Origin: Microbacterium sp. KUDC0406
GTDB taxonomy: Bacteria; Actinomycetota; Actinomycetes; Actinomycetales; Microbacteriaceae
Direction of reading: 5' to 3'
Assembly (NCBI RefSeq): GCF_021582875.1
Contig: NZ_CP091138.1
Coordinates: 1,426,001 to 1,490,000, forward strand
DNA length: 64,000 nucleotides
The notes under the pieces are model-generated. The model was not told the origin of the DNA. It saw only the letters and a list, made by a program, of their open reading frames with translations, and did no database searches. A program made the translations under genes and the position numbers. Positions 24,703-60,696 of the stretch are shown one piece after another (the stretch's first letter is position 1; each line of letters begins with the position of its first letter).

Positions 24703-25610
24703 CTATGCCGAGGGCTTGCGCGAGAACGCCTCCAGCCGCTGCTCCGGAGTGAGCTCCGCCATCTCGCGCACCCACTCCTCCGAGAAGAAGTCGGCGGTGG
24801 GCGCATCGACCACCGGGACGACCGTGTGCGTGATCGTGTCGGGGTGCACGTGCACCAGGTGGAACGACTGCGCGGCGTCCATCCCGTTGACCTCGGCCGC
24901 CGGCAGCGCGACGTTCATCGTGTAGCAGGTCGACGAGGCCACGCTCACCGGCACGCCCGCGAACATGCCGGACGACGAGTAGTGCAGGTGGCCGGCGAGG
25001 ATGCCGCGAACGTCGGTGTCGCGGATCACTTCGGCGAACTCGTCCTGGTGGCGCAGCTCGAGGATGTCGAACAGCGGCAGGTGCGAGGGCAGCGGCGGGT
25101 GGTGCAGCGCAAGCAGCGTGCCGTGCGGGGCCGGCGTGCGAAGCTGCTCGGCGAGCCAGTCCAGCTGGCCCTCATCGAGGTCGCCGTGGTGCCAGCCGGG
25201 CACGCTGGAGTCCAGGGTGATCAGCCTGAGCTCGTCCAGATCCCACACGCCGGTGACGGGCTCCTCAGTGGCTGCGCCGTCGAGCAGCGCGGCACGCAGC
25301 GCCGGGCGCTCGTCATGATTGCCCGCCACCCAGACGATCGGGCAGTCGAGCTCGGCGGCGACCGGTTCGAGCGCTGCGCGCAGCCGCCGATAGGCGTCTG
25401 CCTCGCCGAAGTCGGTGAGATCGCCGGTGACGACGATGGCCGCCGGTGCCGGATGCACCTGCCGCACCGCCTGCAGCGTGCGGGCCAGGTTCGCGTCGGA
25501 GTCGGCGCCGCCGGCGTGCCGTGCTCCCCCGCGAGGAGGTGCGGATCGCTGAGGTGGATGATCGTGTGCGACGCCGCCTCATGACGGCCGAAGGCGGGAA
25601 GGGCGGTCAT
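24703..25610 (-). pseudogene. Calcineurin-like (CpdA-type) metallophosphoesterase, split by a 1-base frameshift
   Basis: Two frames together give a ~302-residue 3',5'-cyclic-nucleotide phosphodiesterase-like protein. The first frame starts at 25610 (MTALPAFGRHEAASHTIIHL...SDPH, metal ligands Asp and His). The second continues as GADSDANLARTLQAVRQVHP, with GDLTD, GNHD, LALHHPP and GHLHYSS completing the di-metal centre. The join lies around 25505-25520, where one base is missing in GCCGGCGGCGCC. Because all motifs survive on both sides and the protein is otherwise intact, sequencing error is more likely than decay. Confidence 0.8.
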
Positions 25611-25649
25611 GCCCTCAGCATAGGACCGCCGCCGACACCGGCGGCGGAG

Positions 25650-25985
25650 TCAGTGGCCGATGACGATCAGGAGGATGCCGCCGAGAACGGCCGCCCCGCA
25701 GAGCACGAAGCAGCAGATCGCGGCGATGAACGCCATCGACTTCTGGGCCTCGGTGAGCGGGCTCTTCTTCGCCGCCTTGGCCGCCTGCTTCTCGGCGCGG
25801 CGGATCTCCTTCTCGGTGAGCACGGTTATCGCGTCGGTGAACTCCACCGGCGAGACCACGGGGATGCGGCCGGCGCGCACCAGCATCCGCAGACCCAGCG
25901 AGTAGAACACCACGATGGCGACCGCGCCGATCAGCGCGGCGATGAAGACGTTGACGAACGCGATCCAGTCGATCTCGATGCTCAT
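25650..25985 (-). CDS. Small membrane protein partner of the PIT transporter
   Basis: A 111-residue protein with two hydrophobic segments, one near the N-terminus (VNVFIAALIGAVAIVVFYSLG) and one at the C-terminus (MAFIAAICCFVLCGAAVLGGILLIVIG), joined by a basic EIRRAEKQAAKAAKK segment. Its start overlaps the end of the phosphate transporter gene by 4 bp. Similar small proteins follow pit in other actinobacteria; role unknown, perhaps assembly or regulation of PitA. Confidence 0.78.
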   Translation of the reverse strand: MSIEIDWIAFVNVFIAALIGAVAIVVFYSLGLRMLVRAGRIPVVSPVEFTDAITVLTEKEIRRAEKQAAKAAKKSPLTEAQKSMAFIAAICCFVLCGAAVLGGILLIVIGH

Positions 25986-27448
25986 CGTGCGTCCTCCTGC
26001 TCATCGACGTCGAGGTCCCACTCCGCCAGCTCGGCACGCGCACGGCGACTGCTGCTGAGCGACTCCCACTCCTTGGCCGCCTGGTCCGCCTCGGCGTACT
26101 TCTGGGCAGCGCGCTCGGCCGCCTTGCGTGCGGCCTTGACCTCACTCGGCGTGCCGCCCGACTTCTTCAACTTCTTGGCCTTGCGCGCCGCGCGCTCGGC
26201 CTCGTCGGCCTTGCGCTCGGCGCGCTCCAGCGCGCGCATCAGTTCGATGCGGCTGGTGCGGCGGGTGGGGCCGGGCACTTCGGGCAGTTCCACGGCGTGG
26301 CCGGACTCGGCGACATCGCTCATCGCGTTCGACGCCGTGACCGCGTTCCTGCGGGAGCGCAGGAACATGCCCACGATGATGATGACGGCGGCGATCGCGT
26401 CGATGACGACGCCCCAGCCGCCGAGCCACACCACCAGCACGGCGGCCACGGCGCCGACGGCACCGGCCGCCGGAAGCGTCAGCAGCCAGCCCAGCGCGAT
26501 GCGTCCCGCCGTCCGCCAGCGCACCGTGGAGCCGCGACGGCCCAGGCCCGAGCCGATCACCGAACCGGAGGCGACCTGAGTGGTCGACAGCGCGAACCCG
26601 AAGGCGCTGGAGGCGAGGATGGTGGCGGCCGTGGAGCTCTCGGCAGAGAAGCCCTGCGCGGGCTTGACCTCGGTGAGGCCCTTGCCGAGCGTGCGGATGA
26701 TGCGCCAGCCGCCGAGGTAGGTGCCCAGCGCGATGGTGAAGGCACAGGCGACGATCACCCAGAACTCCGGGTTGTGGTAGTTCTCGCTGCCCGGATCGCC
26801 GGTCTGCCAGCCGACGGTGATCAGGGCCAGGGTGATCACGCCCATGGTCTTCTGCGCGTCGTTCGTGCCGTGCGCGAGCGCCACCATCGACGAGGTGAAG
26901 ATCTGGCCCCAGCGGAAGCCGGAGCGGCCATCCGGCTTGCCGTCGTAGCGCCGCGTGATGCCGTAGGCGGCCTTGGTGGCGGCGAAGGCGATCAGCCCGG
27001 CCGTGACCGGAGCGATGAGCGCCGGCAGCACGACCTTGGACAGCACCACGCCGAAGTTGATGCCGGCGACGCCGACGCCGACCAGGGTCGCGCCGATCAG
27101 CCCGCCGAAAAGTGCGTGCGACGAGCTGGAGGGCAGCCCGAGCAGCCAGGTGAGCATGTTCCACGTGATCGCGCCGATGAGGCCTGCGAAGATCAGCGCG
27201 GGCAGCAGATCGTGCGAGATGTCCGCCTCGTTGACGATGCCGCCGGAGACGGTCTTCGCCACCTCCGTGGAGAGGAACGCACCGACCAGGTTCAGGCAGG
27301 CGGCGAGCAGCACCGCGGTCTTGGGCTTCAGGGCACCGGTGGCGATCGGCGTCGCCATCGCGTTGGCGGTGTCGTGGAAGCCGTTCGTGAAGTCGAAGAA
27401 CAGTGCCAGCGCGATGACCAGCACGACGATGAGGGCTGCGGTTTCCAC
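25982..27448 (-). CDS. pit: Inorganic phosphate transporter, PiT family
   Basis: A 488-residue membrane transporter. The two PiT signatures are present: FFDFTNGFHDTANAMATPIATG near the N-terminus and GTNDAQKTMGVITLAL in the middle, with about ten membrane spans. A charged, predicted coiled C-terminal ~110 residues is rich in Ala, Lys and Glu (AERKADEAERAARKAKKLKK), longer than in many PiT proteins. It is a proton- or metal-phosphate symporter in the cytoplasmic membrane. GTG at 27448 starts VETAALIVVLVI. It overlaps the small membrane gene downstream by 4 bp. Confidence 0.92.
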   Translation of the reverse strand: METAALIVVLVIALALFFDFTNGFHDTANAMATPIATGALKPKTAVLLAACLNLVGAFLSTEVAKTVSGGIVNEADISHDLLPALIFAGLIGAITWNMLTWLLGLPSSSSHALFGGLIGATLVGVGVAGINFGVVLSKVVLPALIAPVTAGLIAFAATKAAYGITRRYDGKPDGRSGFRWGQIFTSSMVALAHGTNDAQKTMGVITLALITVGWQTGDPGSENYHNPEFWVIVACAFTIALGTYLGGWRIIRTLGKGLTEVKPAQGFSAESSTAATILASSAFGFALSTTQVASGSVIGSGLGRRGSTVRWRTAGRIALGWLLTLPAAGAVGAVAAVLVVWLGGWGVVIDAIAAVIIIVGMFLRSRRNAVTASNAMSDVAESGHAVELPEVPGPTRRTSRIELMRALERAERKADEAERAARKAKKLKKSGGTPSEVKAARKAAERAAQKYAEADQAAKEWESLSSSRRARAELAEWDLDVDEQEDAR

Positions 27449-27600
27449 CGGTCGCTTTCGTTGAAGATGCAGAGACAGTGCCGACGCTGCCGGCGTGACG
27501 AACGAAGAGTTCACCGTGGGTATCAGATCCGTTAATCGGCCCTTCAGAATCCTCCCACCCTGCTCCGCCTCGGTCAACTCGCGCCGGGTAGCGTGGAGGG

Positions 27601-29707
27601 GTGACCGAGCAGACCACCAGCGCACCCGCGGCGGCGCGCCGCCCCGCGCCCCGCATCCACCACGGCGACACCTTCGACGACCCCTACGAGTGGCTCCGCG
27701 CCAAGGACGATCCCGAGGTGATCGCGCATCTCGAGGCGGAGAACGCGCACACCGAGGAGCGCACATCGCACCTCGAGGACCTGCGAGAGCGGCTGTTCCA
27801 GGAGGTCAAGGGCCGGGTGCAGGAGACCGATCTCTCGGTGCCGACGCGGCAGGGCGACTGGTGGTACTACGGTCGCACCGAGGAGGGCGCGCAGTACGGC
27901 ATCCAGTGCCGCACCGTCGGCATCCGGCGACGACTGGACGCCCCCGCAGCTGGTTCCGGGCGAACCGGTGCCCGGCGAGCAGGTGCTGCTGGACGGCAAC
28001 GTCGAGGCCGAGGGACACGAGTTCTTCTCGCTCGGCGCCTTCGACGTCTCGGATGACGGCACGCGGATGCTCTGGTCGGTGGATGTCGCCGGAGACGAGC
28101 TGTACACCGTGCACGCTCGTGACCTGGTGTCCGGCGCAGGCTTCGACGACGTCATCGAGAACACCGGTCAGGCATTCTTCACGCCGGACGGCACCGCGAT
28201 CCTCTACACGACGCGGGACGAGGCCTGGCGCCCGGACACCCTCTGGATGCACAGTCTCGGGACCCCCGCCTCGGAGGACGTGAAGCTGTTCCACGAGCCC
28301 GACGAGCGGTTCTGGCTGGGCGCCGGCATCACGCGCAGCAAGAAGTACCTGGTCGTCGAGATGGGCTCGAAGATCACCAGCGAGGCGCACCTGTTCGACT
28401 TCGCCGATCTCGCAGCAGGCGGACATGTGGTCTGGCCGCGCCGCGACGGCGTGGAGTACGAGATCGACCACGCGGTGATCGACGGCGAGGACGTGCTGTA
28501 CGTGCTGCACAACGACGGCGCCCTCGACTTCGAGCTCGTCGCGGTGCCGGCATCCGACCCGCAGGGCGAGCGTCGCGTGGTGCTGCCGCACACGCCGGGG
28601 CGGCGCATCCTCGAGGTGGACTGCTTCCGCGACTTCGCGACGGTCGAGTATCGCCGCGAGGGCCTCGGCCGCATCGGCCTGCTGTCCTACGCCGACGACG
28701 CCGTCTCGGAGCTCGACTTCGACGAGCCGCTGTACAGCGCGTGGTTCTCCGGCAACCCGGAATGGCACGTCCCGCTGCTGCGGATGGGCTACGTCTCGTT
28801 CATCACGCCGTCGACCGTGCTCGATCTGGATGTCGCCACGGGCGAGCGACTGGTGCGCAAGCAGCAGCCCGTGCTCGGCGGCTACGATCCAGCGGACTAC
28901 GACCAGCGCAGGCTGTGGGCCACCGCGGACGACGGCGCCCAGGTGCCGATCTCGCTCGTGTGGCGGAGATCGTTCGGCGAGCCGGGCGCCGCGCCGCGCC
29001 CGGTGCACCTCTACGGCTACGGCTCCTACGAGTCGTCGATGGATCCCGGCTTCTCCCCGATGCGGCTGTCCATGCTCGACCGCGGCGTGGTGTTCGCGAT
29101 CGCGCACGTGCGCGGCGGCGGCGAGATGGGCCGGCACTGGTACGACGACGGCAAGATGCTGCGCAAGCGCAACACGTTCACCGACTTCGTCGCCTGCGCG
29201 CGGCACCTCGTCGACACCGGTGTGACGACTCCCGAGCGGATGATCGCCGAGGGCGGCAGCGCCGGCGGCCTGCTGATGGGCGCCGTCGCGAATCTCGCGC
29301 CCGAGCTGTTCACCGGCATCCTCGCCGAGGTGCCGTTCGTCGACGCGCTCACGTCGATCCTCGACCCCTCCCTGCCGCTGACGGTGGTCGAGTGGGACGA
29401 GTGGGGCGACCCGCTGCACGATCCGGAGGTGTACGCCTACATGAAGTCGTACACGCCGTACGAGAACCTCCGGACGGATGCCGCCTACCCGCCGATCCTC
29501 GCCATCACCTCGATCAACGACACCAGGGTGCTGTACGTCGAACCGGCCAAGTGGGTCGCCGCGCTGCGCTTCGCCGGCGCGGAGGACGTGCTGCTCAAGT
29601 GCGAGATGGCGGCCGGGCACGGCGGCGTGAGCGGACGCTACAACGCCTGGCGCGAGCGCGCGTTCGCCCTCGCCTGGGCGCTGGACCGGCTCGGTCTCGC
29701 GGACTGA
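27601..29707 (+). pseudogene. S9 family oligopeptidase B-like peptidase, split by a 1-base frameshift
   Basis: About 702 residues when the frame is repaired. The GTG-started first frame holds the N-terminal part (APRIHHGDTFDDPYEWLRAKDD, typical of prolyl oligopeptidase/PtrB). The second frame continues from ASGDDWTPPQ through a beta-propeller to the alpha/beta-hydrolase domain with GGSAGGLL (nucleophile Ser), the Asp near SINDTRVLYVEPA and AGHGG (His). The join is at 27913-27925, where CACCGTCGGCATCC contains one G too many. The Ser-Asp-His triad lies entirely after the break, so the organism probably has an intact peptidase that cuts short peptides after basic residues. Confidence 0.85.
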
Positions 29708-29711
29708 CGCT

Positions 29712-29746
29712 CTTCGACAGCACCTGGGTCGCTGAGCCTGTCGAAG
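29712..29746. repeat. Extragenic repeat (family B) hairpin
   Basis: CTTCGACAG pairs with CTGTCGAAG, and the element CTGGGTCGCTGAGCCTG + TCGAAGGG matches that at 10307-10335. It sits in the 74-bp gap between two convergent genes (the oligopeptidase and pfkA), where it could also help terminate both. Confidence 0.6.
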
Positions 29747-29781
29747 GGTCCTTCGATCCCCACGCCCCGCTCAGGAACCCG

Positions 29782-30810
29782 TCAGCCGAACAGCGCCGCG
29801 GCCTCGTCGTAACGGCTGCGCGGCACGGTGTTCAGCTCACCGAGGGCGTCCTCGAACGGGACACGCACGATCTCAGTGCCCTGCATGGCCACCATCTGCC
29901 CCCAGGCGCCGTCGACGACCGCGTCGGCGGCGTGCAGGCCGAGCCGGGTCGCGAGCACCCGGTCGAACCCGGAGGGCGAGCCGCCGCGCTGGATGTGGCC
30001 GAGGATCGTCGCGCGGGTCTCGATGCCGGTGATCCGCTCGATCTCGGGTGCGAGCCGGTCGCCGATGCCGCCGAGGCGTGGGCGGTTGAACGCGTCGAGC
30101 CCCTTGTCGCTGTAGGCCTCGTCCATGCCCTCCAGCTTGAAGCCCTCCGAGACCACGACGAGCGGTGCGCGACCCCGGTCGTGCGCGCTCGTGACCAGAG
30201 CCGTGATCTCCTCGAGGGTCTGCGGCACCTCGGGGATGAGGATGGCGTGCGCCCCGGCGGCCATGCCCGCGTGCAGGGCGATCCAGCCGACGTGCCGGCC
30301 CATGACCTCGGCGACCATGCAGCGCTGATGCGAGTCACCGGTGGTGCGCAGCCGGTCCATGGCCTCGGTGGCGATGTTGACGGCGGTGTCGAAGCCGAAG
30401 GAGTAGTCGGTGGCGCGCAGGTCGTTGTCGATCGTCTTCGGCACGCCGATGACGTTGATGCCGTCCTTGGCGAGGCGGTCGGCCGCGGCGAGGGTGCCCT
30501 CGCCGCCGATCGCGATGATGCCGTCGATACGGTGCCCGTACAGGGTCTTCGCGATGTTCTCCGCGCCCCCGCGCTCCCCCTCGTACGGGTTCGTGCGGCT
30601 GGTGCCGAGGATGGTGCCGCCCACCTTGGACAGACCCTTGACCTCATGGCGGGTGAGCGGGAAGAAGTCGCCGTCGACCACGCCGCGCCAGCCGTCCCGG
30701 ATGCCGACGAACTCGAGGTCGTACGCGGTGGTGCCCTTGAGCACGATGCCGCGGATGACTGCGTTCAGTCCGGGGCAGTCGCCACCGCTGGTCAGAATGC
30801 CGATCTTCAT
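29782..30810 (-). CDS. pfkA: ATP-dependent 6-phosphofructokinase
   Basis: A 342-residue glycolytic kinase phosphorylating fructose 6-phosphate. GGDCPGLNAVIRG binds nucleotide; GGEGTLAAADRL, PKTIDNDL (catalytic Asp), AEVMGRHVGW and HIQRGGSPSGFDR are all present. The residue after GGE is Gly, as in ATP-type enzymes, while the Lys of PKTIDND is shared with PPi-type ones, a mixed pattern known from actinobacterial group III enzymes; ATP use is more likely. Free-standing gene on the minus strand, convergent with the oligopeptidase gene. Confidence 0.94.
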   Translation of the reverse strand: MKIGILTSGGDCPGLNAVIRGIVLKGTTAYDLEFVGIRDGWRGVVDGDFFPLTRHEVKGLSKVGGTILGTSRTNPYEGERGGAENIAKTLYGHRIDGIIAIGGEGTLAAADRLAKDGINVIGVPKTIDNDLRATDYSFGFDTAVNIATEAMDRLRTTGDSHQRCMVAEVMGRHVGWIALHAGMAAGAHAILIPEVPQTLEEITALVTSAHDRGRAPLVVVSEGFKLEGMDEAYSDKGLDAFNRPRLGGIGDRLAPEIERITGIETRATILGHIQRGGSPSGFDRVLATRLGLHAADAVVDGAWGQMVAMQGTEIVRVPFEDALGELNTVPRSRYDEAAALFG

Positions 30811-30977
30811 GCTGCTGCCTTCGTGCTTCGGGGAAAGGGTAAAGGCGACGCTGCCTGCTTCCGACCCTAGTGGGCGACGGCATCCGATGCCATTCCACCC
30901 GAGCGAAAACCGAGGATCTTGCGGACCTGATCGAGTCGAAACGATGATCTTGCGGTGTTCCGACCACCTCGCACGCA

Positions 30978-31013
30978 AGAGGGCGTCAAGAACGGATGTT
31001 CTTAACGCCCTCT
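30978..31013 (-). terminator. Terminator hairpin downstream of the SNF2 helicase gene
   Basis: A 16-bp stem with one mismatch (AGAGGGCGTCAAGAAC / GTTCTTAACGCCCTCT) and a GGAT loop, 15 nt after the helicase stop. The flanking 218-bp gap to pfkA has no gene and should contain the pfkA promoter. Confidence 0.7.
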
Positions 31014-31028
31014 GCGCGGCTGATGACC

Positions 31029-33176
31029 TCAGGCCGTCAGCAGAGACTCCCGCAGCAGGTGCATGAGCGCACCGAGCTGCACCGACTCCACGCTTCCCGG
31101 CTCGATGTTCTCGCCGTCCAGCGCACGACCGGCCAGTCCCTGCTTCTGATCGATGAGCTCGGCGATCTTGGTGTCGATCGTGTGCGCGGCGATGATGCGC
31201 CATGCGGTGACCGGCTCGTCCTGGCCGATGCGGTGCACGCGGTCGATCGCCTGCGTCTGCTCGGCAGCGGTCCAGCTGAGCTCGGCGAGCACGACGTTCG
31301 ACGCGGCCTGCAGGTTCACACCGACGCCGGCCGCAGTGAGCGAGCACACCGCGATCCCGACCTCGGGGTCGGCGTTGAACGCGTCGATCGCCGCCTGACG
31401 CGCCGGGGTGGTCTGGTCGCCGCGGATGGACACCGCTCTGATGCCGGATGCGGCGAAGTGCGCCTCGGCCTGGTCCATGACATCGATGTGCTTCGCGAAG
31501 AACACGACCTTCTCGACCGAGCGCTGCAGCTGCGCGGCGTAGTCGGCGGCGAGCTGGGCCTTGGCCTGGCCGATGCGGCGCACCATCGTGAAGACGTTGT
31601 CTCCCCCGGTGCCGGCGGCCTTGGACTCCTCGAGCTCGTTGTGCGCGACCAGGCGCACGATGTCCTCGTCGATCTCGCCGGCCTCGGACGGGCCGTGTGC
31701 TGCCGCGCGGGCCTCGACGATGCGACGGTACTTCGCCGCCATGCGCTCGCCCAGCTCGCGCTCCGCCTCGCGGATTCCCCGGCCGAACTCGTCATCCAGC
31801 TGCACGGGCAGATCCGCGATGAGCTTGTCGGGCAGGTCGGCTGCGACGTCCTTCTTCTTGCGTCGCACGATGCCCATCGAGATGACGGCCTCGCGCGCCT
31901 CGGCATAGAACGACTTGTCTGCGGGGGTCAGGCCGGTGGCGTCCAGCTTGTCCATCAGCGCCGGCTCCGGCTTCTCGCCGTTGGTCCAGCCCAGGAAGCG
32001 CCAGATCGCGTCGAAGTCCTCGACGTCGTTGATCAGCGGTGTTCCGGTGAGGGCGAGCATGAGCGGGTTGGCCTCGCGCTCGCGGATGCGGCTCGCCAGC
32101 GCCAGCACGTTCTGCGAGCGCTGCGAGGAGAGGTTCTTGATGAAGTGCGCCTCGTCGACGACCATGCCCTTCAGCCCGATCGAGCTCAGCCACGACAGGT
32201 GCCGGTCGAGGATCTCGTAGTTCACGATGAACACGTCGGCGAACGCGTCGATGTCGGCGCCGTCGCCCTGGATCACCGTGGCTCGGCGCTGCGGGGTCCA
32301 CAGCTCCACCTCGCGCGCCCAGTTCATCTTCACGACGTTGGGCACGACGACCAGCAGCGGGTAGGACTCGGCGACGGATGCCGCCAGCACCGACTGCGCG
32401 GTCTTGCCGAGCCCGGGCTCGTCGGCCAGCAGGAAGCTGCGGTGCCCGGCGCGCACCGACTCGATGAAGCGCGACTGGTGCACCATGACCTCGCGGCCCT
32501 TGGGCGAGATGTGGTCGTACTCGGGCACCGGAGGCAGCTCCATCGTGGCCGTTCCCCCGCCTGCGCCGGACTCGAACGCCTTGTACAGCGGGCCCATCAG
32601 CTCCCAGCCGTCCAGCCGACGGCGGGGCGTCGAGGCCGGACGCGGCGTGAGATCGGGGGCGAGGAAGGGGTTCGCGAGCTGGCGCGACTCCACCGACGGC
32701 GGGGTCACCTGCTTCTCGGCGAGAGCGGCGGGCACGACCACCGTGCTCTTCACCGGCGCGATGTCGGTGATGACGAGCTCCTCCGGGGCGAGCTCTGCGC
32801 CGGACTCGAGCAGCCAGTCGCGCCGCATGCGCTTGGCCACGGGGCTGGTGGCCTGGTCGGCCTCGAGCAGCTGGATCAGCGACGTGTCGCGCGCAGCGGT
32901 CTTGGCGAGGATCGTCGCCACGCCGTCGAGACGCTTGAGCAGTTCAGCACGCGCCGAGTCGGACAGCTCGCCGTCGGCCTTCACCCTGGCGCGCTCCTCG
33001 CGCACCAGGAAGGCGATGACCTGGAACTTCACACGATTGGTGGGCCCGAGCTTTCCGCGCTGGGCCTTCGCCTCGATCTCGCGCACCTTGCGGGCGAGGA
33101 TCGGGATCAGAGGCGCCTCGTCATCGCGACGGGACGTCTTCTTTCGCCGCGGGGCGGCGGTCGCCGTGGTCGGCAT
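31029..33176 (-). CDS. SNF2/RapA-type DEAD-like helicase
   Basis: A 715-residue protein. The C-terminal 500 residues are a complete SNF2 ATPase: Walker A DEPGLGKT at about 280, VDEAHFIKN (DEAH box), ALTGTPLIND, then in lobe 2 VVFFAKHIDVMDQAE, LTAAGVGVNLQAASNVVLAE and AIDRVHRIGQDEPVTAW. The N-terminal ~200 residues are basic and unlike other domains I know. Excellent ribosome site GGAGGAG before ATG at 33176. Similar stand-alone SMARCAL1/HepA-like enzymes remodel nucleic-acid complexes or restart replication; role unproven. Confidence 0.88.
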   Translation of the reverse strand: MPTTATAAPRRKKTSRRDDEAPLIPILARKVREIEAKAQRGKLGPTNRVKFQVIAFLVREERARVKADGELSDSARAELLKRLDGVATILAKTAARDTSLIQLLEADQATSPVAKRMRRDWLLESGAELAPEELVITDIAPVKSTVVVPAALAEKQVTPPSVESRQLANPFLAPDLTPRPASTPRRRLDGWELMGPLYKAFESGAGGGTATMELPPVPEYDHISPKGREVMVHQSRFIESVRAGHRSFLLADEPGLGKTAQSVLAASVAESYPLLVVVPNVVKMNWAREVELWTPQRRATVIQGDGADIDAFADVFIVNYEILDRHLSWLSSIGLKGMVVDEAHFIKNLSSQRSQNVLALASRIREREANPLMLALTGTPLINDVEDFDAIWRFLGWTNGEKPEPALMDKLDATGLTPADKSFYAEAREAVISMGIVRRKKKDVAADLPDKLIADLPVQLDDEFGRGIREAERELGERMAAKYRRIVEARAAAHGPSEAGEIDEDIVRLVAHNELEESKAAGTGGDNVFTMVRRIGQAKAQLAADYAAQLQRSVEKVVFFAKHIDVMDQAEAHFAASGIRAVSIRGDQTTPARQAAIDAFNADPEVGIAVCSLTAAGVGVNLQAASNVVLAELSWTAAEQTQAIDRVHRIGQDEPVTAWRIIAAHTIDTKIAELIDQKQGLAGRALDGENIEPGSVESVQLGALMHLLRESLLTA

Positions 33177-36797: not shown

Positions 36798-37696
36798 ATG
36801 GTCACGCCCGCGACTCCCCCGCCGCGTGGCGCCCAGCTCTGCTGGCATGGTACCGACGCGAAGCCCGCGATCTCCCGTGGCGCCGGCCGGAGTTCTCGGA
36901 TCGTTATGGCGCCTGGGGCACGCTGGTCAGCGAGTTCATGCTGCAGCAGACTCCGGTCGCACGGGTGATCCCGCACCTGGAGGCCTGGCTGGAGCGCTGG
37001 CCGACGCCGGCCGCGCAGGCCGCGGCGACGCCGGCCCAGGTGGTGCATCAGTGGGCGAATCTCGGCTACCCGCGGCGCGCGCTCTGGCTGCACCGCGCCG
37101 CCATCGAGGTGGTCGAGCGGCACGGTGGTGTCGTGCCCCGCGATGTCGACGCGCTGCTGGCGCTGTCCGGCATCGGCGACTACACCGCGCGAGCCGTCGC
37201 CGTGTTCAGCTACGGCGACCGGCACCCGGTCGTCGACACCAACACCCGCAGGGTGATCGCACGGGCGGTGGACGGCCGGTCGCAGCCCGCCCCGCCGTCC
37301 CGGCGGGATCTGATGCGCATGTCGGCGCTTCTCCCCGAGGACGACGACGATGCCGCGGTCTTCAACGCCGCCGCGATGGAGCTCGGCGCGGTGGTCTGCA
37401 CCGCACGCTCGCCGCGATGCGGGATCTGCCCGCTCGCGCCCTCCTGCGCCTGGCTTGCCGCCGGCCGCCCCGACACCGGCGACGAGCGTCGCCGCCAGGC
37501 GCGCTACGAGGGATCGGACCGGCAGACCCGCGGCGGCATCCTGCGCGCGCTGCGGCACGCGACGGATCATCGGATGCCGGCGGATGCCGTGCTCGCGGAC
37601 TGGCCGGATCGGGCGCAGCGCGACCGGGCGATCGACTCCCTGATCGCCGACGGCCTCGTCGAGGCATCCGACGACCACCTGCTGCTCCCCCGCTGA
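36798..37696 (+). pseudogene. mutY: A/G-specific adenine glycosylase, split by a 1-base frameshift
   Basis: A MutY-type glycosylase that removes adenine mispaired with 8-oxoguanine. After the ATG at 36798 the frame is lost at a run of five C (36816-36820); removing one C continues WRPALLAWYRREARDLPWRRPEFSDRYGAWGTLVSEFMLQQTPVARV, giving about 298 residues. Catalytic features follow: helix-hairpin-helix LLALSGIGDYTARAVAVFSYG with VDTNTRRV, and the iron-sulfur ligands C-X6-C-X2-C-X5-C near the C-terminus. The NUDIX-like C-terminal domain of long MutY is absent. The break is probably an extra base in the homopolymer. Confidence 0.8.
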
Positions 37697-40353: not shown

Positions 40354-43124
40354 TCAGCCGCGCGGCTTCTCCACCATCTCGGTCGTCTCGATCTCGTCGC
40401 CGACCTGGATGTCGTTGTACTTGCCCAGGCCGATGCCGGCCTCGAAGTCGGTGCGCACCTCGGTGACGTCGTCCTTGAAGCGACGCAGCGACTCGATGGC
40501 CAGGCCATCGGCGAGCACGACGCCGTCGCGGATGACGCGCGCCTTGGCGTTGCGCGTGATCGTTCCGGAGCGGACGATGACACCGGCGATGTTGCCGAAC
40601 TTCGAGGAGCGGAACACCTCGCGGATCTCGGCGACACCCGACTGGACCTCTTCGAACTCCGGCTTGAGCATGCCCTTGAGAGAGCTCTCGATCTCGTCGA
40701 TCGCGTTGTAGATCACCGAGTAGAACCGGATGTCCACGCCCTCGCGGGACGCCGCCTCGCGGGCCTTCGCATCGGGGCGGACGTTGAAGCCGATGACGAT
40801 CGCGTTGTCGATCGTCGCCAGGTTCACATCCGACTCCGTGACAGCGCCGACACCGCGGTGGATGATCCGCAGCTGCACCGAGTCGTCGACCTCGATCTTG
40901 AGGAGCGACTCCTCCAGCGCCTCGACGGCACCGGACACGTCACCCTTGATGATGAGGTTGAGCGTCTCGACCTTGCCCTCTTCGAGAGCACGGGTGAAGT
41001 CCTCGAGCGAGATGCGCTTGCGAGCCTTGGCCAGCTGGGCGTTGCGCTCGACGGCCTCGCGCTTCTCGGCGATCTGGCGAGCCATGCGGTCCTCGTCCGT
41101 GACGATGAACACGTCACCGGCGCGGGGCACCGAGTTCAGACCCTGCACCTGCACCGGACGCGAGGGCGCTGCGAACTCGACCGCTTCGCCGTTCTCGTCG
41201 AGCATGGCGCGGACGCGGCCGTACGCCGTTCCGGCGACGATCGCGTCGCCGACGTGCAGCGTTCCGGACTGGATCAGCACCGTGGCGATGGAGCCGCGGC
41301 CCTTGTCGAGCTTCGCCTCGATCGCGACACCGCGGGCGGACTTGTTCGGGTTCGCCGTGAGGTCGAGACCCGCGTCAGCGGTCAGCAGCACGGCGTCGAG
41401 CAGCTCCTGGATGCCGGTGCCGGCACGCGCCGACACGTCCACGAACATGACGTCGCCGCCGTACTCCTCGGCCACCAGACCGTACTCGGTCAGCTGCTGG
41501 CGCACCTTGGCCGGGTTGGCCTCGGGCTTGTCGACCTTGTTCACCGCGACCACGATCGGCACCTCGGCCGCCTGGGCGTGGTTCAGCGCCTCCACCGTCT
41601 GCGGCATGATGCCGTCGTCGGCGGCGACCACGAGGATGGCGAGATCGGTGACCTGGGCACCACGGGCACGCATGGCGGTGAACGCCTCGTGACCCGGGGT
41701 GTCGATGAAGGTGATCGCGCGCTCGATGCCCTCGTGCTCGGTCCAGACCTGGTACGCACCGATGTGCTGCGTGATGCCGCCGGCCTCGCCCTCGATCACG
41801 TTGGTCTGACGGATCGCGTCGAGCAGACGCGTCTTACCGTGGTCGACGTGGCCCATGACGGTGACCACCGGAGGACGGATCTCGAGATCCTCGTCGCTCT
41901 CGGCCTCCAGCTCGGCCTCGAGGTCGAGACCGAAGCCCTCCAGGAGCTCCTTGTCCTCGTCCTCGGGCGAGACGATCTGCACCTTGTAGCCGAGCTCTTC
42001 GCCGAGGACCTCGAAGGTGGCCTCGTCGAGCGACTCGGTCGCGGTCGCCATCTCACCCAGGTTGAACAGGATGGTGACGAGCGTGCCCGGCTGGACGGTG
42101 TAACCCCTCAGGGCCTCGAGCTTGTCCGCGAAGTCGGCGATCGACGCGCCGCGGCGCAGACGGATGATCTCGCCGTTGCCCTTCTGGACGTTGACGCCGC
42201 CGACGACCGGCGCCGACCGCATCTCGAATTCCTGCCGCTTCGCCCGCCGCGACTTGCGCTGCTTGCTCTTGCCGCCGCCCTTGCCGAACGCGCCCGCAGT
42301 GCCGCCGCCGGGTCCACGACCGCGACCGCCGCCACCGGGACGACCGGCGAAGCCGCCGCCCGGACGCTGGAAGCCACCACCGGCACCGGCGCCCCCACCG
42401 GGACCGCCGGGACGGCCAGGACCGCCGGAGCGCTGCTGGAACGGAGCGCCGCCGGGACGACCGCCCTGACCGCCACGTGCGCCACCCGGACGACCGGCGC
42501 CCGCCGGACGGGGTCCGCCGACGCGCGGCGAACCGGGACGGGGAGCCTGCGGCCGCCGGATGTTGCCCGGAGTCGGACGCTGACCCATGCCCTGCGCCGA
42601 GGCGAACGGGTTGTTTCCCGGACGCGGGCCCGCGGGCCGCTGACCCATGCCCTGCGAGGACGAGAAGGGGTTGTTCCCGGGTCGCGGTGCGCCCGGCTTC
42701 GGGCGCCACCGCTCTTCGGGGCGGCACCGGGCTTCGGAGCGTCACCCGGCTTGGGTGCGCTGCCGCCCGGCTTGGGCGCGTCGGATGCCGGAGCCTGAGT
42801 CTCGGCAGCGGGAGCCGGTGCCTCTTCAGCGGGCGCCGCAGGCGCCGCGGGCTTGGCGGGACCGGGCTTCGGGCCCGGCTTGGGTGCGCTCTTCGCACCC
42901 GAAGCAGCGGGCTTCGGGGCGGACTTCGCCTCGGGCCCTGCCTCGACGGGCTTCGCGCTCGGGTCGGCCTCGATCGCCGCGCGCAGCTTGCGCGCCACCG
43001 GCGGTTCGATGGTCGAGGACGGGCTCTTCACGAACTCGCCGAGCTCCTTGAGCTTCGCGAGAGCGAACTTGCTGTCGACGCCGAGTTCAGCGGCGATCTC
43101 GTGCACACGTGGTTTGGCAGCCAC
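40354..43124 (-). CDS. infB: Translation initiation factor IF-2 (1-base frameshift in the assembly)
   Basis: About 922 residues when repaired. N-terminal IF2_N region starts [30 protein letters not shown] ~300-residue Ala/Pro/Gly/Arg-rich low-complexity zone follows, with [17 protein letters not shown] repeats. The GTPase core has [10 protein letters not shown] (G1), DTPGHEAF (G3) and NKVDKPEAN (G4); the C-terminal domains bind fMet-tRNA. The frame breaks at 42701-42703, where GGG on the plus strand should be GGGG; adding one base joins AAPKSGGA to [13 protein letters not shown]. As infB is essential, the lesion is almost certainly a sequencing error. Confidence 0.95.
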
Positions 43125-43524: not shown

Positions 43525-44511
43525 TCAGTCCATGACGCTGTCGGGCTGAATGTCGATCTTCGCGCCCGTGAGCTTCGCGGCGAGGCGGGCGTTCTGGCCC
43601 TCCTTGCCGATCGCGAGCGACAGCTGATAGTCGGGCACCAGGGCGCGGACGGCCTTGGTGCCGGCGTCCAGCACGAACGCGCTGGTGACCTTGGCGGGCG
43701 AGAGCGCGTTCGCGACGAAGGTGGCGAGATCGGGATTGTGGTCGACGATGTCGATCTTCTCGCCGGACAGTTCCTCGGTGACGGCGCGCACGCGGCGGCC
43801 GAGCTCCCCGATGCAGGCACCCTTCGCGTTGATGGACGGGTCGTTCGCCGTGACCGCGATCTTGGTGCGATGGCCGGCCTCACGGGCGAGCGAGACAATC
43901 TCGACCAGGCCCGCGGCGATCTCCGGCACCTCGAGAGCGAACAGCTTGCGCACCAGACCGGGGTGGGTCCGCGACACGGTGATCTGAGGCCCCTTCGTGC
44001 CCTTGGACACGCTCGTCACGTACACGCGCAGACGCGAGCCGTGCGTGTACTCCTCGCCGGGGACCTGCTCCTCGGGCGGGAGGATCGCCTCGACCGATCC
44101 GAGATCCACGTGGATCATGCGCGGGTTCGGGCCCTGCTGGACGACACCGGCGACGATGTCGCCCTCCTTGCCGCGGAACTCACCGAGCACCGCGTCGTCG
44201 GCGATGTCGCGGAGGCGCTGGCTGATGACCTGCTTGGCCGCGAAGGCGGCGATGCGACCGAAGTCCTCGGGCGTCGTCTCCTCCTCGCCGACGACCGCGC
44301 CCTCGTCATCGAGCACCGGCTGCAGCACGGCGACGTGACCGGTCTTGCGGTCGAGGTGGACGCGCACGCCCTCGGTGGTCTCGTCGCCCTCGGAGGAGGC
44401 GTTCTTGAGGTAGGCCGTCAGGATCGCCTGCTCGATGATCTCGACGAGCTCATCGAAGGGGATCGCCTTCTCCTTCTCGATGCCGCGCAGCAGTCCGAGT
44501 TCGATGTCCAT
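43525..44511 (-). CDS. nusA: Transcription termination/antitermination factor NusA
   Basis: A 328-residue NusA of actinobacterial length. Order: N-terminal RNA-polymerase-binding domain (MDIELGLLRGIEKEKAIPFDELVEIIEQAIL), S1 domain (GDIVAGVVQQGPNPRMIHVDLGSVEAILP), then two KH domains (SINAKGACIGELGRRVRAVTEELSGEKIDIV and PDYQLSLAIGKEGQNARLAAKLTGAKIDI). It starts the nusA-ylxR-infB-rbfA group. The rimP gene often found upstream is not here; the region upstream holds a glycosyltransferase gene on the other strand. Confidence 0.96.
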   Translation of the reverse strand: MDIELGLLRGIEKEKAIPFDELVEIIEQAILTAYLKNASSEGDETTEGVRVHLDRKTGHVAVLQPVLDDEGAVVGEEETTPEDFGRIAAFAAKQVISQRLRDIADDAVLGEFRGKEGDIVAGVVQQGPNPRMIHVDLGSVEAILPPEEQVPGEEYTHGSRLRVYVTSVSKGTKGPQITVSRTHPGLVRKLFALEVPEIAAGLVEIVSLAREAGHRTKIAVTANDPSINAKGACIGELGRRVRAVTEELSGEKIDIVDHNPDLATFVANALSPAKVTSAFVLDAGTKAVRALVPDYQLSLAIGKEGQNARLAAKLTGAKIDIQPDSVMD

Positions 44512-44739
44512 GACGGCCTCCCTATTAAGCTCTCACCGCGGTCAGGTTCGCCGCGGGCATCCGACCAGAATACCGGACGCGCGCCCGCGCGACGCCGCAC
44601 AGCGGGGTCGGGCGAGAGGACGCACTCCTCACCGGCATGTTTCCGTGCTTGTCGGCCGCGCGCCGCGGGTCTACCCTGATCGCATCGGATTTCGCAGGAT
44701 GCCTTCGCATTCGCCTTGGGGAACGAGATCGGAACACCC

Positions 44740-45858: not shown

Positions 45859-46892
45859 TCAGCCGGCCGACGGCAGCCTGTTGATCGCGCGGATCAGTCG
45901 GTGCAGCGCGCCGACCCGGAACTGGTCGAGCACCAGCACCAGCCGCGGCATCTCAACGACATCACGGTCGGCGCGCTCCGGAGCCAGGGGCTCGGTGCGC
46001 TCGATGCGGCCGCGCAGCAGCAGGTCGCCGAAGCGATCGTTGAGCTCCGCGATCTCCGCGTCCGTCGGCGCGGTGCGCAGCCGCAGCACCAGCTGATCGC
46101 CGACCCAGCGCAGCGAGTCGTAGTTGTGCCAGAACCCCAGGATCTCCTGTGCGGCCGCGTCGACCGAGTCGGTGATCAGCACCCGATCCAGGTCACCGGG
46201 CGAGATGTATCCCCCGCGGCGAGGTTTCCGTCGACGAAGGTCTTCAGGCCGTGCCAGAACGTGCCGCCCGGCTCGTCGAGCAGCACGATCGGCACGGGTT
46301 CGGCCTTACCGGTCTGCTGAAGAGTGAGCAACTCGAACATCTCGTCCATGGTGCCGAAGCCGCCCGGCAGGCAGACGAAGCCGCGGGACTCCTTGACGAG
46401 CATGAGCTTGCGCGTGAAGAAGTACTTCATCGACACGAGGTTGGTGTCCTCGGCGACGACGGCGTTCGCCTTCTCCTCGAAGGGCAGCCGGATCGAGACG
46501 CCGATCGACATCTCCCGTCCCGCGCCCTCCGCTGCCGCCTGCATGATGCCCGGCCCGGCTCCGGTGACCACCATCCAGCCGGCTTTCGACAGCAGTGCGG
46601 CGACGTCGTGAGCCTGACCGTAGAGCGGATCGGCCCCCGTCGTGCGCGCCGATCCGAAGATCGTGGCCTTGGACGCCCCGGTGAGCGGGGCGAACAGCCG
46701 GAACGCGTCGCGCATCTCGCTGAGCGCGGCCGACGCGATCTTCAGGTCGAGGCGGTCGGTGCTGTCCTGCCCCAGCAGGATCGCCGACTGCAGGATGCGG
46801 GTGACGAGGCTCCTGTTCGCGGTGATACCCGCCTGGTCGAGCAGCGTCGCCAGTCGCACGCGGAGATCGTCAGGAGGGGTCGGGTCGGTCAT
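45859..46892 (-). pseudogene. LOG-family (TIGR00730) Rossmann-fold protein, split by a 1-base frameshift
   Basis: A nucleotide-binding protein of the LOG/lysine decarboxylase-like fold: VVTGAGPGIMQAAAEGA and CLPGGFGTMDEMFELLTLQQTGK are the PGGxGTxxE and GGGxxG-like motifs of cytokinin riboside phosphorylase relatives. The frame breaks at the run of five C at 46211-46215 (G5 in the gene); adding one G continues GGYISPGDLDRVLITDSVDAAAQEILGFWHNYDSL, giving about 344 residues. Function of this long actinobacterial type is not established; nucleotide hydrolase activity is known for relatives. Probable sequencing error. Confidence 0.82.
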
Positions 46893-51915: not shown

Positions 51916-51925
51916 GGAGGGCGCC

Positions 51926-53166: not shown

Positions 53167-53194
53167 GCGTCGATCCGCCGGATACGCTGGCCGG

Positions 53195-54007: not shown

Positions 54008-54057
54008 TGTACAAGCCCGCCTGACGTACCGCGTGTGCACTGCTAGCATCCGGGATC

Positions 54058-54941
54058 ATGGCACAGACCCTGAGCATCAACGGAACCGGGATCTTCGTGG
54101 ATGAACGCGGCCCGGCCGACGGGCCAGCGGTGCTGTTCATCCACGGCGGACCAGGCAACCCGTCCTGGGACTTCATGGAGTCCGTCGGCGACCTGTTCGC
54201 CGCCCAGGGGTACGCATCATCGGAGTCGACCAGCGCGGCATCCTGCGCTCCGACACTCTGCCCGAGGTACCCGCGCTGAGCGTGCCGGTGCTGATCGAGG
54301 ACTTCGAGCAGCTGCGGGAATCCCTCGGGATCGAATCCTGGACGATCATCGGCCATTCCTCCGGCGGCGCCTACGCACTGGACTACGCCCTGGCGCATCC
54401 CCGGGTGATCGACAGACTCATCCTGGACTGCCCCGCGCTCGACACGGACGCCACCGACCGACACCGCCTCCCCCGCGCCGCAGCGCTGCTCGACGCGGCG
54501 GGCATGCCGGAGGAGGCGGAGCGCTGCCGTGAGCTCGCCGGGCGCGAGCAGCGGCTGAGCGCCGAGGACCGGTCCTGGGAGGCCATGACCCCGCTCGGCG
54601 CGCAGTACCTCGATCTGTTCTTCGCCGACGCCGAGGGGCGCCGGCGCTACGAGGAGATCACGGATGCCGCGCCCGACGGTCTGGACTGGTCGAAGTCGTG
54701 GTCGCACCGTCCGCTGCTGGCCGACATGTACGTCGACCGTCTGCCGCAGCTGCCCTCCCTGACGATGCCATCGATGCTGGTGCACGGCGATGCCGACCTG
54801 GTCGCCGCCCCGGCGATCGTCGACGCCTACCGCGCGGCGACCGGCGGCCCGGTGGCAACCATCGCGAACGCCGGCCACTTCTCCTTCGTCGAGCGCCCGA
54901 CCGAGTACGTCGATGCCGTGATGGGCTTCCTGCGCGGCTGA
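54058..54941 (+). pseudogene. Alpha/beta hydrolase (proline iminopeptidase-like), split by a 1-base frameshift
   Basis: About 295 residues when repaired. The first frame gives VLFIHGGPGNPSWDFMESVG, with the oxyanion HGGPG motif. The break lies at about 54213 in TACGCATC; adding one C yields YRIIGVDQRGILRSDTLPEV, followed by the second frame with GHSSGGAYALDY (nucleophile Ser), the acid region and NAGHFSF (His). This is a typical proline iminopeptidase/haloperoxidase-like alpha/beta hydrolase, and the unbroken triad suggests a sequencing error. Confidence 0.82.
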
Positions 54942-54963
54942 GGGCAGGCGCGGTCGCGTCGGC

Positions 54964-56603
<1,640 letters not shown>

Positions 56604-56618
56604 CTGTCAGTGCGGAGG

Positions 56619-57476
56619 TCAGGCCGGAAGGACGGTCGTCGTCATCGTGAGCAGCTGGTCGTGCAGCTCCAGCGCCACCGTGATCGCGGCGAACTCGGCC
56701 AGCGAGGCGGCATGCGTGCCGCCACACGGGATCGTCGCGGTGCCCTCGGGCAGCTCGCACTCCCAGCGCCGCATGTCGATGATCGTCGGCCCGTCGGTGA
56801 CGATGCGGCTCGGCGCCGCAGAGGCGACCCAGGCTGCCAGCGTGGCGTTGATCGCCGCCTCGCGCTCCGCCACCGTCGCCGAGAACCCCTCCGAGTCGAA
56901 CCCCGCCTTGCGCAGGCTCTTGCCCAGGCGGTACTCGTCGACGGCGCCGTCCTCGTGGATGCGGCTGGTCTGATTCGCCCGGCCCTCGAAGTCCGGGTTT
57001 CCCAGGGCGTCGGCGCCCGGGTCCTTGCGCCACAGGTCGGCGAGCACCAGGTCGAGGGCCAGCGACGCCAGGTGGCAGGCGGTGTGCCCGCGGCTGAGGC
57101 CGGCACGACGCCCTGCATCGACCTCGAGAGTCGCGGACGCCCCCACAACGACGGCTGCCGGGATCTCACCTTCCGCGCGGTGGGCGACCAGCCACGTCCA
57201 GCCCTCCGCGCCGCGCTTGACCGGGATGTCGGTCCCGACGGCGAGCGCACCGTCGTCGCTGACCGCGGCCATCACGGCCTCCGTCACCTCGACACGGGCG
57301 CCGTCCACCGTGATCGTGCCGGAGTCCCCCGGCTGATCGGGCCAGGTGTGGTCGACCGGGTGGAAGGGCGTGCGATCCAGCAGCACGACAGCGCCGTCCG
57401 CGTGCGAGTGCACGCCGACGATCGTCGCCTCCTCCGCGACGGAACCCGACGGGAAGGTGATGTCGGTGGCGCTCAC
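56619..57476 (-). CDS. Alanyl-tRNA editing (AlaX-like) domain protein
   Basis: A 285-residue free-standing trans-editing enzyme that hydrolyses wrongly charged aminoacyl-tRNA-Ala. The zinc-binding motifs are HTACH ([16 protein letters not shown]) and CGGTH ([14 protein letters not shown]), arranged as in the AlaRS editing domain. The N-terminal ~110 residues form the tRNA-type beta domain ([20 protein letters not shown]). GTG overlaps the ispG stop by 4 bp, so it is translated after ispG. Confidence 0.88.
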
Positions 57477-58624
57477 GAGGTGACGACCTGCGCCGTGCCG
57501 AGCGGTGCGTCGGGGCCCATCTCTGCGGCGATGCGGTTCGCCTCCTCGATCAGGGTGGCGACGATGTCCGCCTCGGGCACGGTCTTGATGACCTCGCCCT
57601 TGACGAAGATCTGCCCCTTGCCGTTGCCCGAGGCGACGCCGAGGTCTGCCTCGCGTGCCTCGCCCGGTCCGTTCACGACGCATCCCATCACGGCGACGCG
57701 CAGCGGCACGGTCATGTCCTTCAGCCCCTCGGTGACGTCGTCGGCGAGCGTGTAGACGTCGACCTGCGCGCGTCCGCAGGACGGGCAGGACACGATCTCG
57801 AGTTTGCGCTCGCGCAGGTTCAGCGACTGCAGGATCTGGTGCCCGACCTTGACCTCTTCGGCCGGCGGGGCCGAGAGCGAGACGCGGATCGTGTCGCCGA
57901 TTCCCTCGCCGAGCAGGATTCCGAATGCCGTGGCGCTCTTGATCGTGCCCTGGAACGCCGGGCCGGCCTCGGTGACGCCGAGGTGCAGGGGCCAGTCGCC
58001 GCGCTCGGCGAGCAGGCGGTAGGCCTTGACCATCACGACCGGGTCGTTGTGCTTGACCGAGATCTTGAAGTCGTGGAAGTCGTGCTCCTCGAACAGCGAC
58101 GCCTCCCAGACCGCGCTCTCCACGAGCGCCTCCGGCGTGGCCTTGCCGTACTTCTCGAGCAGGCGGGGGTCGAGCGAGCCCGCGTTCACGCCGATGCGCA
58201 GCGAGACGCCGGCATCCTTCGCGGCCTTGGCGATCGCGCCGACCTGGTCGTCGAACTTGCGGATGTTGCCCGGGTTCACGCGCACCGCACCGCAGCCGGC
58301 GTCGATCGCCTGGAACACGTACTTGGGCTGGAAGTGGATGTCGGCGATGACGGGGATCTGACTCTTCTTCGCGATGATGTGCAGAACGTCGGCGTCGTCC
58401 TGCGACGGCACCGCGACGCGCACGATCTCGCAGCCCGATGCGGTCAGCTCCGCGATCTGCTGCAGGGTTCCGTTGATGTCGGTGGTCTTCGTCGTGGTCA
58501 TCGATTGGACGCTGACAGGAGCGTCGCCCCCGACGAGCACCTTGCCGACCCGGATCTGACGGGACTTGCGACGAGGCGCGAGGACTTCCGGGACGCGCGG
58601 CATCCCCAGGTTCACTGCTGGCAC
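57473..58624 (-). CDS. ispG: (E)-4-hydroxy-3-methylbut-2-enyl-diphosphate synthase
   Basis: A 383-residue MEP-pathway enzyme with a 4Fe-4S cluster. [25 protein letters not shown] starts the TIM barrel; [11 protein letters not shown] and [11 protein letters not shown] supply the cluster Cys residues. GTG at 58624 is chosen because GGAGG lies there; a second GTG at 58615 has better spacing (9 nt) and may be the true start. Standard rseP-ispG neighbour relation, with the anthranilate synthase gene placed between. Confidence 0.95.
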
Positions 58625-58688
58625 CCCTCCAGCGTACCCGGGCGTCACACGCTGGGGCCGGGCGCCGCCTGTGTGGTACTTTCGCCGT

Positions 58689-58724
58689 ATGTCCGCGACC
58701 CGCACCTGGTGGCCCGCCTCCTAG
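58689..58724 (+). CDS. Trp-rich leader peptide of the attenuator
   Basis: Eleven codons, [11 protein letters not shown], ending in TAG, with two adjacent UGG codons (58707-58712). An extended -10-like sequence TGGTACTTT ends 6 nt before the ATG, which would make the message leaderless. The Trp codons lie just ahead of the first stem, as in trp leader peptides. Confidence 0.85.
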
Positions 58725-58777
58725 GCGGAGTTTCGCGTACCCACGAGAACCAGACCGCCTTCCGGGGCGGTCTTTTT
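58714..58777 (+). promoter_or_regulatory. Trp-type transcription attenuator
   Basis: Region 1 (CCGCC, 58714-58718) can pair with region 2 (GGCGG, 58724-58728). Region 2 can instead pair with region 3 (CCGCC, 58755-58759). Region 3-4 forms the terminator AGACCGCC / GGCGGTCT (58752-58759 and 58766-58773), ending in five T. Ribosome stalling at the Trp codons would cover region 1, free region 2 to pair with region 3, and block termination. Confidence 0.85.
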
Positions 58778-58813
58778 GCATCCCGCGCCGGATTCCCCGA
58801 TACAGGAGACCCG

Positions 58814-60696
58814 ATGGCCATCGCCGAACGCCTGCACGCCCTCACCGCCGACCCCGCCGCGTCCTTCGTGCTGATCGCGCGCGACGGCGGCGTGGAGCTG
58901 CTCACCGGCACTGTCGCCGACGTTGAGCTGCTGGCCGACATCCCGCTGGAGCGCGACCGCGAGGTCTTCGCCCTCGTCCCGTACCGCCAGGTGCGCGAGC
59001 GCGACTTCGAGGCGCAGGACGACGGCACGCCGCTGCGCTGCATCCTCGTCGAGGAGCACGAGCGGCTGGATGCCGCAGAGCTGATCGCTGCGCTGCCGAA
59101 CGCGCCGATCGCGCTGCGCGACAGCGGATTCGACATCTCCGACGAGGACTACGCCGCGATCGTGGAGCAGGTCATCGACGAGGAGATCGGCCGCGGCGAG
59201 GGTGCGAACTTCGTGATCCGCCGCGACTACCGGGCATCCTTCGACACCGACGACCGCACGGCGGCGCTGACCTGGTTCCGCGCGCTGCTCGAGCACGAGC
59301 GCGGCGCGTACTGGACGTTCGCGGTGATCACGCCCGGGCGCATCGCGGTGGGCGCGAGCCCCGAGGCCCACGTCGTCGCCCGCGACGGGATCGTCACGAT
59401 GAACCCGATCTCGGGCACGTTCCGGCATCCGGCGGGAGGTGCGACCAAGGCCGCGCTGACGGAGTTCCTCTCCTCGACGAAGGAGACCGAGGAGCTCTTC
59501 ATGGTCGTGGACGAAGAGCTCAAGATGATGAGCCAGGTCTGCTCGGACGGCGGGCACATCACCGGTCCGCATCTGAAGCAGATGTCACGGCTGACGCACA
59601 CGGAGTACATGCTCCGCGGGCAGAGCCGGCTGGACCCGCGCGACGTGCTGCGCGAGACGATGTTCGCACCGACGGTCACCGGGTCGCCGATGCAGAACGC
59701 CTGCGCAGTGATCCGCAGACACGAGCAGGCGCCGCGCGGCTATTACTCGGGCGTGGCGGCGCTGTTCAGCCCGAACGCGCACGGCGGACACGATCTGGAC
59801 GCTCCGATCCTCATCCGCACGGTCTACGTCGGCGACGGCCGCCTCGCCGTGCCGGTCGGGGCGACGCTGGTGCGGCACTCCGACCCGTACGGCGAGGTCG
59901 GCGAGACGCACGGGAAGGCCGCCGGGGTGCTGGGCGCGATCGGCGCCATCGAGCGCGACCACGCCGCCGAGGCGCGCAACGACGCGGATGCCCCGGATGC
60001 GACGCCTTCGCTCGCCGACGACCCCGAGATCGCAGAGCTGCTCGCCTCGCGCAACGCGCGCCTCGCAGAGTTCTGGCTGCAGCCGCAGGATGCCGCGACC
60101 GCCGGCGCCATGGCCGGTCGCACAGCGCTCGTGGTGGACGCCGAGGACCGGTTCACCACGATGCTCGCCCACCAGCTGCGCCACCTCGGGCTGGACGCAC
60201 GGGTCGTCCCCTGGGACGCCGTGACCGACGACGAGATCGCTGCCGCCGACCTCGTCGTCGCCGGCCCCGGGCCCGGCGACCCGCGGGACGCCTCGTCGCC
60301 GCGCATCGCGCGCATGCGGCAGGTCGTCGCGCAGCGCCGCGCCGCGGACGCCCCGCTGCTGGCCGTGTGCCTGAGCCACCAGATCCTCGCGAACTCACTG
60401 GGGATCCCGCTGGTCCCGCTGGATGCCCCGCACCAGGGCGTGCAGAAGACGGTTCCGGTGTTCGGCGAGGACGCCTCGGTCGGCTTCTACAACACGTTCA
60501 CTGCGCGGGTCTCCCCGGCACCGTCTCCGTGACGGATGCCGAGGTGTCGGCGGACGCCTCGACCGGAGACGTCTACGCGCTCCGCGGCGAGCGCTTCGCG
60601 TCGATCCAGGGCCACCTGGAGTCGATCCTGTCTCGCGACGGCATCCGCACACTTCAGCGCCTGACGGAGCACGCCCTGTCACTCGCACGTCGCTGA
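58814..60696 (+). pseudogene. Fused anthranilate synthase (TrpEG/PhzE-type), 1-base frameshift near the C-terminus
   Basis: About 627 residues when repaired, the same size as PhzE-type fusions. The N-terminal chorismate-binding half (GAYWTFAVITPGRIAVGASPEAHVV, VDEELKMMSQVCSDGGHITGP, SRLTHTEYMLRG) is followed by a class I glutaminase (VAGPGPGDPRDA, CLSHQIL nucleophile Cys). The frame breaks at 60508-60516; one added base gives LPGTVSVTDAEVS, and QGHLESIL (His and Glu of the triad) follows. The Trp-codon attenuator upstream argues for a tryptophan-biosynthetic role, not phenazines. Likely sequencing error. Confidence 0.82.

Follow-up and report, generated by a model that had tools for sequence, protein, structure and literature searches.

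Seven genes in one stretch of the Microbacterium sp. KUDC0406 genome are each interrupted by a frameshift of a single base, raising the question of whether these lesions belong to the organism or to its assembly. The stretch (the window; 64,000 bases) spans bases 1426001-1490000 of a 3,611,693-base single-contig genome, and an earlier note had ascribed its frameshifts to consensus error of long-read or flow sequencing rather than to pseudogene formation.

Seven breaks in the window and their spread beyond it

We compared each site with 10 relatives picked from 148 other genomes of the genus, using tblastn of their proteins and local DNA alignments per site. All seven single-base frameshifts are present in the assembly as reported, and in the comparison with Microbacterium relatives that the note had proposed, the relatives remain in frame at all seven, although support is uneven and thinnest for mutY and the alpha/beta hydrolase (abh). 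The positions originally given needed correction for the cpdA-like gene, whose break was placed about 18 bases off (25505-25520 instead of 25523-25538). The breaks, in window coordinates, are:

25523-25538, minus strand: cpdA-like metallophosphoesterase (PF00149); fragments 25610-25530 and 25527-24703; one base short against relatives, at a G run
27911-27927, plus strand: S9 peptidase/oligopeptidase B (PF00326, PF02897); fragments 27601-27915 and 27917-29707; one base extra against relatives
36810-36825, plus strand: mutY, about 8 codons from the start; rest of the gene 36818-37696; one base short against relative G129, in a C run; TIGR01084 match under the cut-off
42697-42710, minus strand: infB, in a low-complexity linker (PF04760, TIGR00487); fragments 43124-42654 and 42702-40354
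46207-46223, minus strand: LOG-family protein (TIGR00730); fragments 46892-46212 and 46215-45859; one base short against relatives, in a G run directly following an intact CCGCGG
54202-54215, plus strand: abh (PF00561); downstream part 54282-54941; one base short against G129, at a G run
60506-60522, plus strand: anthranilate synthase-like protein (TrpE/G; PF00425 chorismate-binding, PF00117 glutamine amidotransferase); fragments 58766-60532 and 60514-60696; one base short against relatives, in a C run

Counted modulo 3 in the local DNA alignments, six sites have one base fewer than the relatives and the S9 site one base more, its 7-mer CCGTCGG being CCGCGG plus one base. The LOG site is spanned by all 10 relatives, every one of them a base longer, and the cpdA, S9 and TrpE/G-like sites by 8, 9 and 7 of the 10, respectively. 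All four relatives examined at infB show a frame change there, with a repeat that makes the DNA alignment ambiguous. The mutY site is spanned by 4 of the 10 relatives (by G129 alone cleanly), and G129 is the only relative spanning the abh site in DNA alignments. The ten nearest database relatives of abh are 294-303 amino acids (aa) long at 61-84% identity compared with 227 aa for the KUDC0406 contig's own entry, although some further relatives are short too (for example 220, 257 and 264 aa). A C/G run of 4-5 lies at five of the seven sites, where at least three had been claimed; infB has a run of three and S9 none. Both sides of the breaks were said to be intact, and they do retain 61-97% identity. 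Each gene shows a single frame change in the alignments, and decay beyond one lesion was not seen. That infB cannot be lost had been offered as an argument for error. The break is indeed there, but it carries less weight than claimed: the 764-aa downstream open frame matches positions 13-584 of the 587 in TIGR00487, nearly the whole IF-2 model, and the protein loses no more than its N-terminal part.

Three further places were not accepted as window frameshifts, 19080 and 24668 being indicated by one relative each beside gene starts, and 44506-44515 by one relative with very short matches. Near 24668, G107 (stretch 2372-4384) has a single 670-aa open frame whose matches in the window and in four other relatives fall in two frames, an arrangement that looks specific to G107. 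A search for intact proteins of the same species found none for S9, LOG or abh, the best full-length relatives being 93, 89 and 84% identical (for S9 and LOG, among the matches listed); a partial LOG entry among the matches listed is 91% identical. No second assembly of the species turned up either, the best listed S9 relative being 93% identical.

The breaks extend well beyond the window. When a 344-kb stretch around it was queried with proteins of the relatives G069, G036, G129 and G107 (267 kb aligned), 32 breaks were backed by at least two relatives and a further 22 by a single one. Examined in the same way, G069, G036, G129 and G107 yielded 2, 0, 0 and 1 breaks with multiple support (of the pair in G069, one sits on a joint made by concatenation for the analysis) and 10, 14, 4 and 8 with single support. 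The strict multi-relative rule recovers three of the seven known window sites and so undercounts. In a smaller test each query set detected 1-5 breaks in the window, 28 over ten sets, against 0-7 for each relative over nine sets combined. The resulting rate of 12-21 breaks per 100 kb extrapolates to 430-740 per genome, the upper figure including singly supported breaks, some of them false. Breaks are spread regardless of gene function, both over the 344 kb and over a held-out 380-kb stretch (67 kb of it aligned). Genome completeness is 96.12% for KUDC0406 and 99-100% for most of a sample of 149 genomes from the genus.

One-base losses at short C/G runs and one-base gains inside CCGCGG

Among breaks backed by at least two relatives, 24 are clean one-base differences (16 losses and 8 gains); 8 more with other length differences were left out of the clean motif counts. 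The losses gather at short C/G runs, the gains inside CCGCGG.

Eleven of the 16 clean losses have a C/G run of at least four no more than 9 bases away (9.3% at random places), and all 16 are by a run of at least three (40.5% at random places). C/G runs of five are rarer in KUDC0406 than in any of the ten relatives. Split by flank context, the values are 0.62-0.79 in six of nine contexts and 0.91-1.06 (hardly depleted) in the other three. Runs of six are approximately halved, and CCCCCC likewise stands at half in a k-mer comparison, yet runs of six are fewer still in two of the ten relatives (39.5 kb each). Six of 42 losses, the LOG site included, fall near an intact CCGCGG (null 3.1%). In their accessible text, reports of homopolymer-length errors in long-read bacterial assemblies (PMC11649196, PMC8812927, PMC12007338) describe the one-base homopolymer loss and gene fragmentation also present in KUDC0406. 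By comparison the affected runs in KUDC0406 are short (4-6), because the genome and its relatives have almost no C/G runs above that length. The losses alone cannot name the platform, since the available parts of PMC11649196 record C/G runs that are short by a base in assemblies derived from PacBio data as well. In KUDC0406 itself, besides differences in variable regions, one of the three 23S copies has six G in a run that counts five in the other two, which could be another run-length error.

Gains were counted as CCGCGG-derived if dropping one base of the 7-letter word yields CCGCGG. All 8 clean gains backed by at least two relatives, that at S9 included, pass this test (9.4% at random places; p 6e-9). 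Counting by modulo 3 gives 8 of 10 (p 2e-7), the two extra gains having other length differences and not fitting. With a single supporting relative the figures are 3 of 4 for clean gains (one of the three being the same place on the other strand) and 0 of 3 for modulo-3 gains with other length differences. Other words account for fewer of the same 8 gains, namely 1-3 for five GC palindromes and 0-3 for three other hexamers. Losses can pass the 7-letter test too: it picks out 10 of 42 (null 9.7%), a figure owed in part to intact CCGCGG sites with an adjoining C or G. That route explains none of the 8 gains, and gains pass the test more often than losses (8/8 versus 10/42, p 8e-5). Held-out KUDC0406 DNA (1630001-2010000, 67 kb aligned) contains 14 breaks and 5 clean one-base gains, 3 of which are CCGCGG-derived (p 0.007); the modulo-3 count is 3 of 7 (p 0.02). 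The two clean gains that do not fit comprise one in a good alignment elsewhere and one in a poor alignment at a gene start, and 3 of 6 clean losses are flagged. The held-out DNA thus supports the CCGCGG rule less strongly than the first set did. Approximately 2-3% of CCGCGG sites carry a gain, so sequence context must matter as well.

A first motif guess around GGCATCC was dropped, CGTCGGCATCC being common to three gained-base sites and the CCGCGG core to all. An ab initio k-mer comparison did not reveal the CCGCGG motif, most shifted words resembling lineage composition, for example GACGAAAC. Separately, GCCGGC is 1.3 times as frequent in 464 kb of KUDC0406 as in ten relatives (1994 versus 1531 expected).

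Resident methyltransferases in KUDC0406 and G091

The sole C5-methyltransferase gene (PF00145) of the KUDC0406 genome, at 2838638-2839765, is followed directly by an endonuclease gene, with a 10-base overlap if the longest frame is taken:

2838638-2840448 of the contig, outside the window: Eco29kI-like restriction-modification pair, methyltransferase then endonuclease

The endonuclease matches PF09517 at E 4e-68 (228.8 bits against a cut-off of 30.8) and the PDB structures 3mx4 and 3nic at E 2e-40 to 3e-40. The six Eco29kI active-site residues listed in the available text of PMC1952068 (Y49, Y76, R104, H108, E142, N154) are all matched in the alignments as judged by eye, 3mx4 having Q at E142 and 3nic E. 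PF09517 was found in 1 of 366 genomes of the genus, namely KUDC0406 itself, where the pair sits in DNA of lower G+C, some 3 kb from an integrase-like gene. The CCGCGG pattern had been recorded before the result of the methyltransferase search was known. According to the portions available, Eco29kI and Cfr42I cut CCGC/GG (PMC4081073) and M.Eco29kI converts the second C of CCGCGG to 5-methylcytosine (PMC3039593); judging from the family of the neighbouring endonuclease, the KUDC0406 methyltransferase would likewise target CCGCGG. With the Eco29kI system, as far as the accessible text of PMC1952068 and PMC3039593 describes it, the KUDC0406 pair shares a PF09517 endonuclease, the six active-site residues, an adjoining C5-methyltransferase and overlapping frames. 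It differs in gene order, which is reversed in Eco29kI, and in location, Eco29kI being carried on plasmid pECO29 and the KUDC0406 pair on the chromosomal contig near the integrase-like gene; its cutting specificity is a prediction. Depletion of CCGCGG was sought in 464 kb of the KUDC0406 genome against ten relatives and not found, which would fit a recent arrival of the Eco29kI-like system.

A second single-contig Microbacterium assembly, G091, is 68% complete, lacks a PF09517 match and contains, in 70 kb, 37 breaks backed by at least two relatives. It is more error-ridden than the KUDC0406 assembly. None of its 15 clean gains is CCGCGG-derived (2 of 7 among singly supported ones), although no more than 2.5-3.5 would be expected at the KUDC0406 rate. 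By contrast, 13 of the 15 are GCWGC-derived (null 22%), compared with 0 of 8 in KUDC0406, and 10 of the 15 are by GCAAGC/GCTTGC (null 1.5%); GCAAGC reaches a density of 80 per 100 kb in G091 against 29-34 in four relatives. The sole PF00145 gene of G091 is followed by an NgoFVII-family endonuclease gene, with Vsr and AIPR genes alongside. The reported NgoFVII target, GCSGC in the accessible record, is near but not identical to GCWGC. The available text of PMC10687267 describes modification-mediated nanopore errors at strain-specific motifs, including GCAGC/GCTGC in strains with a GCWGC-type system, and the GCWGC gains of G091 fit these published errors. Those errors resemble ours in being systematic, bound to a motif (GCWGC, the motif of G091, among them) and associated with a lineage-specific methyltransferase. 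They differ in that the errors at modified motifs in that text are mismatches, not indels, found with reads, whereas here one-base gains are deduced from finished sequence alone. G129 and G107 also carry C5-methyltransferase-like genes and have few breaks, so that a methyltransferase by itself makes no errors and the platform must matter.

Origin and consequences of the frameshifts

We consider it very probable that the seven frameshifts are errors of the assembly and not of the organism, and that they mix two mechanisms, namely nanopore losses at C/G runs and gains at CCGCGG caused by 5-methylcytosine. The reads would come from nanopore sequencing of native DNA, which would under-call the length of C/G runs and so give the one-base losses. 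The Eco29kI-like methyltransferase, whose companion belongs to an endonuclease family that cuts CCGC/GG, would methylate CCGCGG, and the 5-methylcytosine may disturb the current such that the consensus sometimes gains a base. Confidence is held down because the 7-letter test flags 10/42 losses as well and because the modulo-3 counts are 8/10 and 3/7. The preference for consensus error over pseudogene formation is borne out by breaks that are widespread (344 kb), of one base each and with conserved flanks, and that follow run length and one hexamer. As to platform, long reads are the likelier half of the earlier attribution, and flow sequencing is unlikely since the extra bases follow a motif with predicted methylation, pointing to native-DNA nanopore data.

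Ordinary long-read homopolymer error alone, with the clustering at CCGCGG a property of GC-rich sequence and not of methylation, would account for most clean losses lying by C/G runs and for the depletion of runs of 5-6, and it gains something from the moderate enrichment of losses by CCGCGG (6/42 near an intact site, null 3.1%). We nevertheless regard it as improbable, because five other GC palindromes (1-3/8) and three other hexamers (0-3/8) do poorly on the same gains, G091 has 0/15 gains at CCGCGG, and the cognate-looking system occurs in 1/366 genomes, that of KUDC0406. Real mutation, through recent and widespread indel accumulation in a mutator or during pseudogene formation, takes the indels at face value as they stand in the deposited sequence and can point to mutY being hit itself. 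MutY loss, however, causes transversions, not indels, and a mutator through loss of NucS was rejected, since a NucS gene is there and its matched stretch contains no stop. Such mutation would moreover have to produce 430-740 broken places by extrapolation, with the start of infB among those seen, leave a single lesion and conserved flanks in each window gene, and have its gains obey the CCGCGG rule, all of which makes it very unlikely. Programmed or recoded frameshifting throughout the genome would explain why many genes are split over two frames, but it is scarcely credible given that relatives carry the same genes in one frame, that losses and gains occur together and that the break contexts, judged by eye, share no slippery-stop arrangement.

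Reading the frameshifts as mixed nanopore errors, we lean, by a modest measure, towards a broader proposition, that finished bacterial assemblies imprint the cytosine methylome of their strain such that the motif of single-base gains names the specificity of the resident C5-methyltransferase without raw reads. On the same reading, CCGCGG pointed to an Eco29kI-like system before the search, and the GCWGC of G091 would go with its NgoFVII-like system. In its accessible text, PMC10333322 deals with the correction of nanopore indels, without deriving motifs from them, and a search for literature on frameshifts or completeness in nanopore Microbacterium genomes returned, in the parts available, nothing that looks related. 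The KUDC0406 genome represents its species in the collection searched, and by extrapolation several hundred genes that are probably intact would be called broken or missing; claims of gene loss or pseudogenes drawn from this assembly are not to be trusted. If the methylation reading is true, restriction-modification specificities would become minable from the error contexts of public long-read assemblies.
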